Positions 5,480 to 60,829 of a DNA stretch of 64,000 nt are shown here, in pieces. This DNA is from Dissulfurimicrobium hydrothermale (GTDB taxonomy: Bacteria > Desulfobacterota > Dissulfuribacteria > Dissulfuribacterales > Sh68), in NCBI RefSeq assembly GCF_022026155.1, contig NZ_CP085041.1:1706306-1770305 (forward strand), in the 5' to 3' direction. Position 1 is the first letter of the stretch. The number at the start of each line of letters is the position of its first letter. Both the position numbers and the translations under genes were made by a program. Under the pieces are notes generated by a model. That model was given only the letters and a program-made list of their open reading frames with translations, did no database searches and had not been told where the DNA came from.

Positions 5480-6187
5480 TCACCCCCGCATCCAAGACGT
5501 TCCCCAGGCAGCTATGATCGCCTCGGCGAGACGAAGGTCATCGGGAAACGTTATCTTAATATTCAGAGCGCTCCCTTCTGCCATGCCAACACTTATACCG
5601 ATAAATTCAAGGAGCGACGCCTCGTCGGTCGCCTTTAAATTTAACATCTGGGCCTCTTCAAACGCCCTGGCAAGATCAAGCCTCTTGCAGATCTGCGGGG
5701 TCTGGGCAAGATACAATCTTGAACGATCTATGGTCCTCAAAATAAACCTGTTGTCGTCGGCCTCCTTTATGGTGTCATTTATGGGGAGTACAGGGATTGC
5801 GGCCCCGACCTCCCTTGCTAGTAGATACACCCCTTCAAGCAGTGCTGTTGTTAAAAGCGGCCTTGCCGCATCATGAACAGCTACCCATTTTATCCCGTCA
5901 TCCACAGCCGAAAGGCCGGCCATCACAGACTCTTGCCTGATTGCACCACCCCGAACAACCTTTACTGGTTTGCCATCGGCACAGGAAACAGCGATATTGT
6001 GTGCCTTTTCTTCATGGGCATAGTCCGAGACCACAACTATTTCGTCTATAATAGACGAATGCGCCATGGCCGCAACACTCCATGCTAGAATGGGCCGTCC
6101 GCCGAGCTGCATGAACTGTTTGGGCTCGCTACCCATGCCAAATCGCACCCCGCGACCAGCTGCGACTATTATGGCTGAAACGCTCAA
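5480..6187 (-). CDS. ispD: 2-C-methyl-D-erythritol 4-phosphate cytidylyltransferase
   Basis: IspD joins CTP and methylerythritol 4-phosphate in the MEP isoprenoid pathway. The 235-residue protein opens with the nucleotide-binding loop AIIVAAGRGVRFG, followed by PKQFMQLGGRPILAWS, then VHDAARPLLT and the C-terminal KATDEASLLE. These are all diagnostic of IspD, and the length is typical. It sits between the glcD-like gene (4-base gap) and ispF (4-base gap) on the minus strand. Confidence 0.95.
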   Translation of the reverse strand: MSVSAIIVAAGRGVRFGMGSEPKQFMQLGGRPILAWSVAAMAHSSIIDEIVVVSDYAHEEKAHNIAVSCADGKPVKVVRGGAIRQESVMAGLSAVDDGIKWVAVHDAARPLLTTALLEGVYLLAREVGAAIPVLPINDTIKEADDNRFILRTIDRSRLYLAQTPQICKRLDLARAFEEAQMLNLKATDEASLLEFIGISVGMAEGSALNIKITFPDDLRLAEAIIAAWGTSWMRG

Positions 6188-6191
6188 AACT

Positions 6192-7574
6192 TCAGGCCTC
6201 GGGGAACATCTTTGCAGGGTTCAACAACCCTTCAGGATCAAACACCGTCTTTATCGCCCGCATTATCTCAAGAGACCTCTTGTCAAGCTCTATGCCGACA
6301 TAAGCCTTTTTTGTAAGCCCTATCCCATGTTCGCCGGAGATAGTACCTCCGAACGCAATGGTTGCCTCAAATATCTCCTTTACCGCGACCTCCGCCCTCT
6401 CATTTTGGAACCCCTCTCCCTTATCCAAAAGGATGTTCACGTGGAGGTTGCCGTCACCTGCATGCCCGAATGTAAGGATCGTAAGCCCGGTCTCCATTGA
6501 AATATCCGCAATCCTGCCGATCATCTCAGGCAGGGCATGCCTAGGCACGCAGATGTCCTCATTGATCTTGTGGGGAAACCCCAGCCTTTTTATAGCCGGC
6601 GATAGAGAGCGTCTAATATCCCAAAATGCCTCGACCTCGTCATTGTTACGTGCGGCACGGACTTCAATGGCACCGCTGTCTGTAAACACCCTTGTGACAA
6701 TGGCTAACTGCTCTGCGACTTGGCTCTCGGGGCCGTCCACCTCTACAAGCAGCATCGCCTTGGCACGGTCGGGTGCTGCAAGACCCGGATTGTCTCTAAT
6801 GCAATCTAGAGATAGACTATCAAGAAGTTCGGCGCATCTGGGAAGTATCCCACGACCAAAGAGCCCTGTTACTGCATCGGCCGCATCCCCCGCGCCCTCA
6901 AAAAAGGCTATAAGCGTACCAACGGCCTCAGGGGCTGGGATAAGCCTTAATATCGCCTTTGTGATGACGCCGAGCGTCCCCTCAGAGCCTACCATGAGCC
7001 TTGTAAGATCATAACCTACCACGCCTTTGGCGGTCCTGACCCCGACCCTTGTAAGATCCCCACCTGGGAGCACGATCTCGAGCCCCATCACGTAATCCCT
7101 GGTGACGCCATATTTTACGGCCCTAGGACCGCCAGCACCAGTCGCTATATTACCCCCTATAGTACAAAAACGAAGACTTGCAGGGTCTGGCGGATAGAAG
7201 AGCCCCATTGATGCGACCTTATCCTGAAACTCACCGGTAACCACACCTGGCTCCACCTCGGCCATGAGATCAGGACGATTGATCGAAAGGATGCGATTCA
7301 TACGCGTCATGGAAAGCACTATCCCTCCACCGCTTGGAAGCGACGCCCCTGTAACGCCGGTGCCAGCCCCTCTTGGAAAGATCGGAATGGCCTTTTCATA
7401 TGAAAAGGCCATGACTTTAGTCACATCTTCAGTCGATGTCGGGAGGACAACCACATCAGGCAATGATTCGAGACCGCTTGCATCATAAGAATAACACAGG
7501 AGTTCGGCCCTGTCAGAGAGGACGTTTTCAGACCCGATCAACCTGGACAATTCCCTTACAATGCCTCTATGCAC
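6192..7574 (-). CDS. glcD: FAD-linked oxidase, GlcD-like (glycolate/lactate dehydrogenase family)
   Basis: A 460-residue flavoprotein with an N-terminal PCMH-type FAD-binding domain (PRGAGTGVTGASLPSGGG near residues 68-85, then GGNIATGAGGPRAVKYGVT) and a C-terminal FAD-oxidase domain with FGHAGDGNLHVNI and SGEHGIGLTKK. This matches the GlcD / D-lactate dehydrogenase family, which oxidises 2-hydroxy acids. No iron-sulfur GlcF partner is next to it. Instead it lies 1 base after the dnaA stop and 4 bases before ispD, an unusual neighbourhood. The substrate (glycolate, D-lactate or 2-hydroxyglutarate) cannot be decided. Confidence 0.88.
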   Translation of the reverse strand: MHRGIVRELSRLIGSENVLSDRAELLCYSYDASGLESLPDVVVLPTSTEDVTKVMAFSYEKAIPIFPRGAGTGVTGASLPSGGGIVLSMTRMNRILSINRPDLMAEVEPGVVTGEFQDKVASMGLFYPPDPASLRFCTIGGNIATGAGGPRAVKYGVTRDYVMGLEIVLPGGDLTRVGVRTAKGVVGYDLTRLMVGSEGTLGVITKAILRLIPAPEAVGTLIAFFEGAGDAADAVTGLFGRGILPRCAELLDSLSLDCIRDNPGLAAPDRAKAMLLVEVDGPESQVAEQLAIVTRVFTDSGAIEVRAARNNDEVEAFWDIRRSLSPAIKRLGFPHKINEDICVPRHALPEMIGRIADISMETGLTILTFGHAGDGNLHVNILLDKGEGFQNERAEVAVKEIFEATIAFGGTISGEHGIGLTKKAYVGIELDKRSLEIMRAIKTVFDPEGLLNPAKMFPEA

Positions 7575-35584: not shown

Positions 35585-37462
35585 TTACCCGATACGCACG
35601 CTTGGAAACAACCCTGCATCAGTATGAGGGAGGAACAAGGCCGAGACGTAATTTTCCATAAAATGCGGATTGCCGCTCAGATCAAAGTGGGTCATCATCC
35701 TGGCGCTCCTTGAAACCTCCTTCATGGCATCGATCGACATGGCCATAGCCCTTGCCCCAGCGAGGGAGCTGTTACCTACAAAAAAGAACCTGTCTCTCGG
35801 GATATCAGGCAAAAGGCCTATTGTGACGGCCTGTTCAAGGTCAAGGTAGCTCCCGAAATTTCCAGCAAGTACCACCCGCTCAAGGTCTTTGAAGTCCATC
35901 CCGACGGACTCCAAGAGGGTCTGATAGCCTGCAAACATAGCCCCTTTGGCCCTTATGAGATTTTCAATATCCGCCTCGGTAAAGACAATATCCCTGCCCG
36001 TCGCTGTTGCACCTTTCTCTATAACGACATACTCCCAACCGTCTCTGCCCGGCCTTATACGGCCGGTCTTGAGGTTGCGCCTGAATCTGCCCTGCCGATC
36101 TATGGCCTCGACCATAAAAAGTCCCGCCATAAGGCTTATTATCCCTGAGCCACAGATGCCTTTGGCCTTCTTACCGCCTATGGTGAGGATCATCGGCTCA
36201 AAGGTCTCGGGATGGATGTGCACCGCCTCAACCGCCCCGGTTGTCGCCCTCATACCGTGCATGATCCCACCCCCCTCAAAGGCTGGTCCTGCCGAACATG
36301 CCGCACAAGCCATCCAGTCCTGATTCCCTAAGACGATTTCGCCATTCGTGCCGATATCGATAAAGAGCGTAAGCTCATGACTACGATGCACCCCTACACC
36401 CACCACGCCCGCGGTTATATCCCCCCCTACGTAACTAGCCACACATGGAGCAAGAAACAGATACACATGCGGCGGGAGGGCTATCCCGATGTCCTTAGCC
36501 CTTACAGGCGGGAGGTGTGTAGCCACAGGGACATAAGGCTGTGTCCTCAGATAACCGGTCTCAAGTCCCAACAGTAGGTGCGTCATGACAGTATTGCCAG
36601 CTGCAGTCATGAGACTTATCGAGTCTTTCGGACACCTTGAAGATGAACAGATCTCAGCGATTAAGGCATTCAGGCAACCGATTATCTTCTGCTGCAAGGT
36701 CAGGAGCCCATCCTTTTTCCTTGCAAACTCCATCCTTGAGATCACATCCTCTCCGAAACTCACCTGCGGATTGTAATTCGAGACATCGGCCAAAATCTTC
36801 CCTGTCGTCAGCTCTATGAGCTGGCCCGAAACAGTAGTTGTACCTATATCAAAAGCGAGCGCAAGGTGACCACCAGCCGCATCTCCTGGCTCAACCCTTA
36901 TGAGCTTCTTAACATCCGGCCTTGGGCCCTCCATCATACTCACTGTCGTCAACCACTCTTTTTCACGCAGGGCTGCAGGCAGATCAAAAAGGATGGTGGT
37001 GTCGACCTCAACTGTTGTGCCCTTTAATCTACCATTCATCAATTCGCGCTGGAGACGGTCGAGGTCGCTTGCGCTATCCGAGAGATCGGGCCGCGGTACA
37101 TTGATGGCGACCTTTTCCACGACCGGACGCAGGTCAAATGGCATCCCGCCGTGAGCCTCCAGCCAAGAAGCAATCTTTCTGGGCGCAGCCCTCGAAAGGG
37201 CCCGTCTGTCCATCTCCGATTCCACAGGCACCCTGATCTTTACGTCACTTACAGGATAAGAGGCACATGCCTTCCAGGCACCGTCAGGAAACCTTTCACC
37301 CCTTAACTCCCCGTCATCCAGAAAGACCTTGCACTTATCGCATACGCCGGCCCCACCGCAGGATGCGTTGATATGAATGCCAGCCCTCATGGCCATCCTG
37401 AGGATTGCCTCTTCCCCTGATGTCTCGATTGTTGTATTTGATGGTAAGAATGTGACCTGCAT
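35585..37462 (-). CDS. ASKHA-family corrinoid activation protein with [2Fe-2S] domain
   Basis: About 625 residues from ATG 37462 (a further ATG at 37492 is possible). The N-terminal ferredoxin domain has CGGAGVCDKCKVFL and a later ACAS cysteine for a [2Fe-2S] cluster. The remainder is an ASKHA ATPase: AFDIGTTTVSGQLI, SAGPAFEGGGIMHGMRA, ICGSGIISLMA and VVLAGNFGSYLDLE. This matches proteins of the RamA/DUF4445 type that reductively reactivate Co(II) corrinoid proteins using ATP, for example with methyltransferases or the acetyl-CoA pathway. No methyltransferase neighbour is in the window. It diverges from the nitrilase-fusion gene. Confidence 0.88.
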   Translation of the reverse strand: MQVTFLPSNTTIETSGEEAILRMAMRAGIHINASCGGAGVCDKCKVFLDDGELRGERFPDGAWKACASYPVSDVKIRVPVESEMDRRALSRAAPRKIASWLEAHGGMPFDLRPVVEKVAINVPRPDLSDSASDLDRLQRELMNGRLKGTTVEVDTTILFDLPAALREKEWLTTVSMMEGPRPDVKKLIRVEPGDAAGGHLALAFDIGTTTVSGQLIELTTGKILADVSNYNPQVSFGEDVISRMEFARKKDGLLTLQQKIIGCLNALIAEICSSSRCPKDSISLMTAAGNTVMTHLLLGLETGYLRTQPYVPVATHLPPVRAKDIGIALPPHVYLFLAPCVASYVGGDITAGVVGVGVHRSHELTLFIDIGTNGEIVLGNQDWMACAACSAGPAFEGGGIMHGMRATTGAVEAVHIHPETFEPMILTIGGKKAKGICGSGIISLMAGLFMVEAIDRQGRFRRNLKTGRIRPGRDGWEYVVIEKGATATGRDIVFTEADIENLIRAKGAMFAGYQTLLESVGMDFKDLERVVLAGNFGSYLDLEQAVTIGLLPDIPRDRFFFVGNSSLAGARAMAMSIDAMKEVSRSARMMTHFDLSGNPHFMENYVSALFLPHTDAGLFPSVRIG

Positions 37463-37512
37463 AGACGTTCCAAAAAATTTGCAATTTATCAAATCGCCTT
37501 AAATAAACACAA

Positions 37513-38838
37513 ATGGATATCATCAAGCAAGGTATAAAAAACAAAGTTGGACGAGGATCTACTATCAATCTGGGGATATTTCAATTCAATCCGCGCCCTG
37601 ACACCCCATGGTTGAACTGGAAGAGGGTGCGCACGGCCATACAGAGACTCAGGGAAAACGGTGTCGACATCATTCTCCTGCCGGAACTCTGGGCTACCGG
37701 CCCACTGCAACCAGGGATGCCGTTGCCTTTAAACGAGCTTGATGAGATAAGGCAAGAGGCCCAGACCCTCTCCAAATCCCTTGGCGTCCTGATCATCGGA
37801 ACGCTTCCGACACCCTGCACGGACGGTGCAAGACATAACCTCTACAATGAGACCCATGTCTTCGGCCTTGACCGTCCACATCACCCCTATAGGAAGATCA
37901 ACCTGTTTCAGCCGATGGCGGAACACAAGCTCTTCAATGAAGGACATACGCCGGCTGTGCTGTGGACCCGAACAAATGGCCTGGAAATAGGCATCGGCCT
38001 CATGACATGCTATGACCTGAGGTTCCCGGAGCTTGCAAGGCAGCTCATCTTTGAAGGCGCCCACATCCTCGCGGTCTCGGCCCTCTGGCCGACTGAAAGG
38101 TTGAGCCAGTTCAAGACCCTGCTTTCGGCAAGGGCCACAGAAAACCAATGTTTTACAGCCGCAGCAAACGCATGGGGGGATTTCAAAGACACCAGGTTTG
38201 CAGGTGGTTCAGGGGTCTATGGACCATCAGGCAAACTAATTGCCGCCGCCCCAGATTCAGAGGCCTGGATATCCATCGGCCTTGACCTTGGAGAACTTGA
38301 CGAAATCCGCCGACAATTTTTTACCGCTCACCCCCCAAGGCACTGGGCCGCACTTACTCAAGGCAAGATATGTGATCTAAAATCATTAAAAGAAACAGCA
38401 TCGCGGCGGCGCAGGGCAGGCCAAAGGATGGTCTTTACAAACGGCTGTTTTGACATCATTCATGCGGGCCATGTCCAATATCTGGAGACCGCCAGACGTA
38501 TGGGGGATTTTTTGGTCGTCGGCCTCAACAGTGACAGATCTGTTAGTGGGATAAAAGGGAAAGGGCGCCCTATAAACAATGAATGGGCCAGGGCCAGGGT
38601 CCTCGCAGGGCTTCAGGCCGTTGACTATATAACGGTCTTCGACGAACCCGATCCCCTTAAGACAATCGAGTCCCTTATGCCTGATGTGCTTGTAAAGGGT
38701 GCCGACTGGGATGAAGATCATATAATAGGGGCTGGCATTGTAAAGAAGAATGGGGGCAGGGTGGAAAGGGTGCCGTTTGAATATGATATATCAACTACAA
38801 AGATCATAAGGCGGATATTAGATCCGTCAAAAAATTGA
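37513..38838 (+). CDS. Fusion: nitrilase-fold amidohydrolase + heptose-1-P adenylyltransferase
   Basis: A 441-residue single ORF with two complete domains. Residues about 18-275 are a carbon-nitrogen hydrolase with Glu in LLPELWATG, Lys in YRKINLF and Cys in MTCYDLRFPEL, the Glu-Lys-Cys triad; the pattern resembles omega-amidase/YafV-type enzymes. Residues about 300-438 are a cytidylyltransferase-fold domain with TNGCFDIIHAGHVQYLE, GLNSDRSVSGIKG and KGADWDEDHIIG, which matches the HldE C-terminal domain or RfaE2 that adenylylates D-glycero-beta-D-manno-heptose 1-phosphate. No stop or start lies between them. The HldE kinase domain is absent. Heptose synthesis also fits gmhA at 60221. The link between the two activities is unclear. 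Confidence 0.85.
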   Translation: MDIIKQGIKNKVGRGSTINLGIFQFNPRPDTPWLNWKRVRTAIQRLRENGVDIILLPELWATGPLQPGMPLPLNELDEIRQEAQTLSKSLGVLIIGTLPTPCTDGARHNLYNETHVFGLDRPHHPYRKINLFQPMAEHKLFNEGHTPAVLWTRTNGLEIGIGLMTCYDLRFPELARQLIFEGAHILAVSALWPTERLSQFKTLLSARATENQCFTAAANAWGDFKDTRFAGGSGVYGPSGKLIAAAPDSEAWISIGLDLGELDEIRRQFFTAHPPRHWAALTQGKICDLKSLKETASRRRRAGQRMVFTNGCFDIIHAGHVQYLETARRMGDFLVVGLNSDRSVSGIKGKGRPINNEWARARVLAGLQAVDYITVFDEPDPLKTIESLMPDVLVKGADWDEDHIIGAGIVKKNGGRVERVPFEYDISTTKIIRRILDPSKN

Positions 38839-38997: not shown

Positions 38998-39513
38998 ATG
39001 GCTGAACAAGAAGAAAAGGTAAATGCAACAGAGACCGATACCCCCAAAAAGAAAAAAAACATGCTGCTGATAGCAATCATCGGCCTGATTGTCGTCATCG
39101 TATTGGCAGGGCTCGGTTCCTATTTGTTTCTCTTTAAAAAACCCAGCAACGAGGCGCTCGAAAGAGAAATAAACGGCGAGCATGAAACCAAAGGTGCAGA
39201 CAAGGGAAAGGTCGGCATCATGGTGGACTTGGAGCCCTTTGTAGTAAACCTCGACGACCCTAAGGCAAGACACTTCCTCAAGATCGCAATCACCCTTGAA
39301 GTGCCTGATGAAAAGGCCAAAGAGGAGATAACAAAACTTATGCCCAAAATCAAAAACGAGATAATCATGATCCTGAGCAGCAAGTCGCTTGATGACGTCA
39401 TTCCTGTGGAAGGCAAGATAAAATTGAGAGACGAGCTCATGGTCAGATTAACCAACATACTCGGCCAGGGTCGTTTGAACAACGTCTATTTCTCGCAATT
39501 TGTAGTTCAGTAG
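38998..39513 (+). CDS. fliL: Flagellar basal-body protein FliL
   Basis: 171 residues: a short lysine-rich cytosolic N-terminus, one transmembrane helix (MLLIAIIGLIVVIVLAGLGS, about residues 22-41), and a periplasmic FliL domain with VDLEPFVVNLDDPKARHFLK and a C-terminal VYFSQFVVQ. It associates with the MotAB stator and modulates motor torque. It is first in the flagellar cluster, directly behind the sigma-54 promoter, and fliM follows after 6 bases. Confidence 0.93.
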   Translation: MAEQEEKVNATETDTPKKKKNMLLIAIIGLIVVIVLAGLGSYLFLFKKPSNEALEREINGEHETKGADKGKVGIMVDLEPFVVNLDDPKARHFLKIAITLEVPDEKAKEEITKLMPKIKNEIIMILSSKSLDDVIPVEGKIKLRDELMVRLTNILGQGRLNNVYFSQFVVQ

Positions 39514-39519
39514 TGGGTC

Positions 39520-40506
39520 ATGAATGCGCTTTTAAGCCAAGAGGAAATAGATGCACTTTTAAGCGGCATAGGCGAGGTCACCGAGGTCACAAAAGAGGCC
39601 GAAGCAAAACCGACGCCGACGATAGGAGAGGTGGTACCTTTCGACTTCGAAAAGGCGACCCTAATGATCAAGACCAAGTTTCCAGGTCTTGACATCGTAA
39701 ACGATCAGTTTAACAGGGGTCTTAGAACCACCCTATCTTCCATACTGAAACTTGCTGCCGACAGTAGTGTAGCCCCAATCGAGATAATAAATTTCAAAAA
39801 TTTTTTGAACAGGATACCTGTCCCGAGCAATATCCACATCATAAAACTGGAGCCGTTCCGTGGGACCGCTATGGTAGTATTGGATCCAAAACTGGTCTTT
39901 TCCATAGTGGAGATATTCCTAGGGTCCACCAAGCTCGGGCAGAGCAGGATAGAAGGGAGGGAGTTCACCTCCATAGAGCAGCGGTTGATAAAGAGGATCA
40001 TAATCTCTATATTGAACGACCTCGAAAGGGCCTGGCGAAACATACATCCCGTCACGATCCAATACATACGCTCTGAAATAAATCCGCAATTTGCAAAGAT
40101 AGCCCAGAACGACGACGCGGTCATCATATCCAGATTTCAGATAGACCTGGAGGAGATCAGCGGATCAATTACCGTCTGCATACCACTCGGCGTACTCCAG
40201 CCCATAAAGTCAAAATTGCAGAGCACTTTTCAAAGCGAAGAGGCTGAAGATCCACTCTGGCGCAAACAATTAATCAGGAATCTTTTCGAGGTTGAGGTGG
40301 ACATAACAGTACCGCTTGGCGACACCAACATAACAGGGGCCGAGCTTATGGACCTGGGTGTGGGGGACATCATCCAGCTCGATACAAATATAGAAGACCT
40401 CCTCAACGTCATAGTCCAGGATAGGCCCAAATTCGCCGGACATCCCGGCCTGTTCAGGGGCCAACGTGCAGTGCGGATCGAAAAGGCGATCAAGATTGAT
40501 GAATGA
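39520..40506 (+). CDS. fliM: Flagellar motor switch protein FliM
   Basis: 328 residues. The N-terminal LLSQEEIDALLSGIGE is the CheY-P-binding segment. The middle CheC-like domain has PGLDIVNDQFNRGLRTTL and FRGTAMVVLDPKLVFSIVEI, and the C-terminal SpoA domain ends VQDRPKFAGHPGLFRGQRAV. FliM forms the C-ring and links chemotactic CheY-P to rotation. Length and motifs are normal. It lies between fliL and fliN. Confidence 0.97.
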   Translation: MNALLSQEEIDALLSGIGEVTEVTKEAEAKPTPTIGEVVPFDFEKATLMIKTKFPGLDIVNDQFNRGLRTTLSSILKLAADSSVAPIEIINFKNFLNRIPVPSNIHIIKLEPFRGTAMVVLDPKLVFSIVEIFLGSTKLGQSRIEGREFTSIEQRLIKRIIISILNDLERAWRNIHPVTIQYIRSEINPQFAKIAQNDDAVIISRFQIDLEEISGSITVCIPLGVLQPIKSKLQSTFQSEEAEDPLWRKQLIRNLFEVEVDITVPLGDTNITGAELMDLGVGDIIQLDTNIEDLLNVIVQDRPKFAGHPGLFRGQRAVRIEKAIKIDE

Positions 40507-60220: not shown

Positions 60221-60829
60221 ATGACAGGATATGACTCAAGGGACCAACAATTGCTGATTAACAGGGCGCTGGATGACCTTATAAAGGCCATTTCCGAGAC
60301 GGTAATCGTGAATTCGCCAAAACTTATTGAGCTCGGGGGATGGGTCTCGTCCGCATTTGAAAACGGCGGAAAACTTCTGCTCTGCGGAAACGGTGGAAGC
60401 GCAGCGGACTCCCAACACATCGCGGCGGAGTTCATAAACCGCTTCCGTCTTGAAAGAAACCCGCTCCCAGCCATCGCCCTCACCACTGACACGTCGGTGA
60501 TTACATCTATCTCAAACGACTATGGCTTCAATTATGTCTTTTCCAAACAGATAGAGGCCCTGGCATCACCAAAAGATGTGGTGATCGGCATCAGCACGAG
60601 CGGCAACTCCCAAAATATCATCTTCGCTATGGATACAGCCAGGATCAAAGGGGCAAAGACAGTGGCCTTTACAGGAAAAGGCGGTGGGAAGATGCCTGCC
60701 CACGCCGACCTCGTCATCACGGTTTCGTCTTCAGATACCCCGCGGATACAAGAGGTGCACATATTTATAGGCCACCTTTTGTGCGATATCGTCGAACAGG
60801 AAATGTTCGGCGGCAAGCGCCATGGATGA
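60221..60829 (+). CDS. gmhA: Phosphoheptose isomerase GmhA
   Basis: 202 residues, a SIS-domain protein with LLCGNGGSAADSQHIAAEFI, TTDTSVITSISNDYGFNYVF and IGISTSGNSQNIIFAMDTA, diagnostic of GmhA. It converts sedoheptulose 7-phosphate to D-glycero-D-manno-heptose 7-phosphate, the first step to ADP-heptose for the LPS core. The HldE-like C-terminal domain in the fusion at 37513 fits the same pathway. Confidence 0.95.
   Translation: MTGYDSRDQQLLINRALDDLIKAISETVIVNSPKLIELGGWVSSAFENGGKLLLCGNGGSAADSQHIAAEFINRFRLERNPLPAIALTTDTSVITSISNDYGFNYVFSKQIEALASPKDVVIGISTSGNSQNIIFAMDTARIKGAKTVAFTGKGGGKMPAHADLVITVSSSDTPRIQEVHIFIGHLLCDIVEQEMFGGKRHG

Follow-up and report, generated by a model that had tools for sequence, protein, structure and literature searches.

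At positions 37513-38838 (+ strand) of the window, the whole 64,000-nucleotide stretch of the Dissulfurimicrobium hydrothermale genome that was analysed, lies a single open reading frame (ORF) encoding a 441-residue protein; its start, end and strand are exact and it contains no internal stop codon. The N-terminal half (hereinafter designated N-half) is a nitrilase-fold CN_hydrolase domain, and the C-terminal half (hereinafter designated C-half) is a complete domain of the HldC/RfaE domain II (RfaE2) type, the heptose-1-phosphate adenylyltransferase family that activates heptose for the bacterial outer membrane. The parts of the protein and the relevant genes of the window are listed in Table 1.

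Table 1 Features of the fused gene and of its surroundings in the window
Feature	Position	Strand	Remarks
RACo-like ferredoxin/ASKHA protein, divergent upstream neighbour	35585..37492	-	same setting in several same-order genomes
CN_hydrolase domain	37573..38310	+	residues 21-266; catalytic E58, K128, C166; Pfam
Junction between halves	38311..38400	+	residues 267-296; replaces the C-terminal tail of stand-alone nitrilases
HldC / RfaE domain II	38401..38820	+	residues 297-436; TIGR02199; sole such domain in the genome
fliL + fliM, downstream neighbours	38998..40506	+	conserved next to the fusion in several genomes of the order
gmhA-like sedoheptulose-7-phosphate isomerase	60221..60829	+	207.4 bits, just below the TIGR00441 cutoff of 209.45

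The protein is a genuine two-domain fusion of two known enzyme families in which both active sites are kept. Pfam assigns CN_hydrolase to the N-half (E 9.5e-31; 107.5 bits against a cutoff of 23.2) and CTP_transf_like to residues 308-434 (E 8e-17), and the C-half scores 188.6 bits against TIGR02199 (rfaE_dom_II), above the curated NCBIfam cutoff of 181.5. Across 56 fused homologues the nitrilase triad Glu58-Lys128-Cys166 and the transferase motif TNGCFDxxHxGH are about 98-100% conserved, with H317, G319 and H320 of the HxGH nucleotidyltransferase motif invariant. These family matches and conserved residues confirm the description given in an earlier note on this DNA, namely two halves with their catalytic motifs in one uninterrupted ORF. 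An AlphaFold2 model built from an alignment of 43 fused sequences has a mean pLDDT of 92 and a pTM of 0.84; pLDDT falls below 50 only over residues 1-13 and at the extreme C-terminus, with a dip around residues 271-280 in the junction. The best PDB sequence match of the C-half is 5x9q/5xf2, and the PDB lists searched contain no solved chain spanning both domains.

A whole-genome search (G000; one contig, 2.03 Mb) returns exactly one TIGR02199 match above cutoff, which is the fused C-half. Pfam and NCBIfam find no heptose-7-phosphate kinase domain in the fused chain, so the protein does not qualify as an HldE. The earlier note's statement that the HldE kinase is absent is true of the ORF and of the window, but the genome encodes a stand-alone HldA kinase above the TIGR02198 cutoff (C1:511799-512737), 1.2 Mb from the fusion, and a missing kinase is thereby rejected. 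Around HldA lie hldD, gmhB and two heptosyltransferase genes, the first of which scores under its curated cutoff. The check for a separate kinase proposed in that note gives the same answer beyond this genome: same-order genomes with a TIGR02199 match above cutoff likewise have just one each, together with a stand-alone HldA. The product of gmhA carries out the first step of the heptose pathway, and the candidate in the window falls 2 bits under its family cutoff; the rest of the ADP-heptose pathway is encoded and there is no second HldC. Judged by genome content and family membership, the C-half, with its HxGH motif kept and as the sole predicted HldC of the genome, must supply the ADP-heptose (HldC) step. 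A possible Calvin-type cassette lies on the same contig at ~503-505 kb (L167:3043-5449): a gene for a near-type-III RuBisCO large subunit, whose 482 bits fall short of the cutoff of 497, adjoins a phosphoribulokinase gene, and GAPDH- and PGK-like genes follow.

The N-half passes the Pfam cutoff and carries the Glu-Lys-Cys triad of the nitrilase superfamily; the remaining CN_hydrolase proteins of the genome are NadE and Lnt, leaving the N-half as its only small-nitrilase-type amidase. At W192-P193, R196, E210-N211-Q212 and N219 it matches Escherichia coli YafV, annotated as a 2-oxoglutaramate amidase, whereas E. coli YbeM departs at most such columns (W-G, D-T-T and G219 against W-P, E-N-Q and N in the fusions). 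YafV also shares the catalytic triad, but has no transferase domain. Because the residues of the active-site neighbourhood are closer to those of YafV than to those of YbeM, our best guess, drawn from few columns and a reference set of these two sequences, is that the N-half is a YafV-like omega-amidase that would clear 2-oxoglutaramate or similar 2-oxo acid amides. Why omega-amidases accompany glutamine transaminases is treated in PMC6302742. The 2-oxoglutaramate-type amidase proposed earlier is thus plausible on the shared active-site pattern, but the fusion stays far under the cutoff of the YafV family model NF007757 (PRK10438; 68.3 against 249 bits), and all scores against curated substrate-level nitrilase models are far below cutoff. 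In the nitrilase tree, YafV and YbeM both fall among stand-alone genes, on long branches. Among nitrilase models, the one for deaminated-glutathione amidase, NF033621 (de_GSH_amidase), ranks near the top for the fused and paired proteins, and the N-half might be such an enzyme (Nit1/YbeM type), or another carboxylate-amide hydrolase, instead of an omega-amidase. We regard this assignment as unlikely, since scores of 78-157 bits (78.4 for the N-half) lie far under the cutoff of 355 and the fusions differ from YbeM at the columns given above; it would leave unchanged the rest of the reading of the fusion set out below.

The nitrilase triad is intact in nearly all of 76 fusions. Two fused relatives from draft genomes have open ORFs with altered active sites: the nitrilase Glu, Lys and Cys are lost in L158:2998-4317 (-), a locus that contains unknown bases, and in L006:1492-2775 (+) the catalytic Cys is replaced by Ser and Arg170 by Cys. 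These two chains suggest that amidase activity may be dispensable somewhere among the relatives.

The fusion is old, and a large part of one bacterial phylum retains it. One ORF carries both halves in at least 36 of 45 genomes of the same family or order (some clipped at contig ends); in one further genome (G040) its two ends lie on different contigs, eight have no match, and the halves are seen as separate genes in none of the 45. About 40 fusions occur in 296 sampled genomes of the phylum, by a tally from query spans and open-frame lengths that was verified on fetched loci; they belong to the window's order and to families f25, f28, f31, f39, f71, f72, f81 and f95. Named records of Thermosulfurimonas, Thermodesulfatator, Thermodesulfobacterium, Caldimicrobium and Desulfurivibrio also carry the fusion. 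A search at E <= 1e-45 finds it in none of 297 genomes from the phylum to which G332 belongs (Acidobacteriota by its record title), and 80 loci from a contig scan include no fusion from another phylum, barring records with odd organism labels. In a metagenome-assembled genome of Thermodesulfobacterium geofontis (L059, near 6001-7119) the fused gene is in two pieces, the second without a start, and looks broken in assembly.

The nitrilase and rfaE2 genes stand as separate same-strand tandem genes in 19 sampled genomes (families f38, f46, f48, f59, f76 and f90), the matched domains being 32-77 bases apart, and an additional tandem pair is found in a named record (L071). A possible rfaE2 start codon precedes the nitrilase stop in all 12 pairs whose junction was read, at -5 or -8 relative to that stop in L186, L187, L188, L205, L206 and L071; the rfaE2 starts are predicted, so that the overlap is a possible overlap. 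The earlier note had named many relatives with two separate ORFs as grounds for doubting the fusion. Such relatives are indeed present in the other families, but the two ORFs lie next to each other and overlap wherever they were inspected, which marks them as the ancestral state and not as a sign of an artefact. The probability that an assembly error or frameshift merely joins two genes is negligible despite these two-ORF relatives, the same single ORF being found in independent assemblies both within the order and across the phylum; a frameshift artefact is rejected by the many independent genomes that carry the fusion.

An upstream comF gene is present in 19 of 21 rows of tandem pairs and in at least 23 rows of fusions, many loci being too short to show it. 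Since comF precedes both pairs and fusions, we infer from this shared gene order that the fusion arose in place, within a comF-nitrilase-rfaE2 operon. Within the window's order the neighbours of the fused gene are instead fliL and the RACo-like gene. In many other families of the phylum the nitrilase gene is not next to rfaE2; the linkage is common, not universal. Both the nitrilase tree and the transferase tree, which are unrooted, separate most fusions from the pairs and the stand-alone genes. In the concatenated tree, also unrooted, family f28 nests among the pairs, and the AU test (p 0.036) speaks weakly against uniting all fusions in a single clade, a group that was itself defined from these data, with the root unplaced. 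The fusion thus arose once, with a later split, or perhaps twice.

We consider it probable that the protein is a bifunctional enzyme derived from joined operon genes, with HldC and omega-amidase-like halves that are independent of each other. The stop codon between adjacent, overlapping nitrilase and rfaE2 genes would have been lost, giving a single protein; on the assumption of independence, the halves would mostly work separately, tied by coupled expression and perhaps by assembly, with no intermediate passed between them. Since the joining of operon neighbours explains the data without a metabolic link, the connection between amide metabolism and LPS heptose synthesis put forward in the earlier note is possible and so far unsupported.

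Functional coupling of the halves, in which an amidase product, ammonia or substrate binding would regulate ADP-heptose synthesis, or an amide substrate would occur in envelope sugar metabolism, seems to us improbable. The nitrilase-rfaE2 pair is adjacent or fused over many families, but many families of the phylum have this nitrilase away from rfaE2, and the upstream partner is comF, for which we know of no role in heptose synthesis. The placement of f28 among the pairs, which leaves room for repeated origins of the fusion, and the retention of the N-terminal domain in L158 and L006 without the catalytic Cys would both fit coupling; so would the high confidence of the two-domain AlphaFold2 model, although pTM by itself is no proof of an interface. 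A more specific version, in which the nitrilase domain would sense nitrogen status or act as a regulatory subunit for HldC, tying outer-membrane heptose synthesis to the levels of 2-oxo acid amides, with selection driving repeated fusion, appears quite doubtful. Glutamine-fed ammonia transfer as in NadE was set aside: ammonia plays no part in the HldC reaction, and a separate NadE is encoded in the genome.

Compared with HldE (RfaE), the kinase/adenylyltransferase that shares its C-terminal domain family TIGR02199 and its pathway step, the fusion has a nitrilase-fold amidase as N-terminal partner and a kinase encoded separately elsewhere in the genome. In Burkholderia pseudomallei HldC is likewise separate from its kinase, but unfused (PMC7993394). 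NitFhit of fly and worm (Nit1-Fhit; PMC9913352) also places a Nit-type nitrilase domain and a nucleotide-acting enzyme in one chain, but its partner is unrelated, eukaryotic and outside the heptose pathway. Other chains containing RfaE2 were observed in the loci: in L151-L157 (family f42) it forms the C-terminal part of a fusion with a Rossmann-like/DUF2520 protein (by Pfam on L152, by sequence and length on the rest), and in L162:2593-3621 (-) it precedes a KdsC-like phosphatase in one ORF.

The earlier note knew of no standard description of the nitrilase-RfaE2 architecture, and we too found none in the literature searched, with most subscription journals outside its coverage. The fusion thus gives an LPS-core enzyme a conserved and apparently undescribed architecture within a single bacterial phylum, and corrects the way in which HldC is identified in these genomes. 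It also offers a handle on the function of a YafV-like amidase family that has, to our knowledge, a little-studied role in bacteria, and makes the functional coupling of the two halves a testable question.
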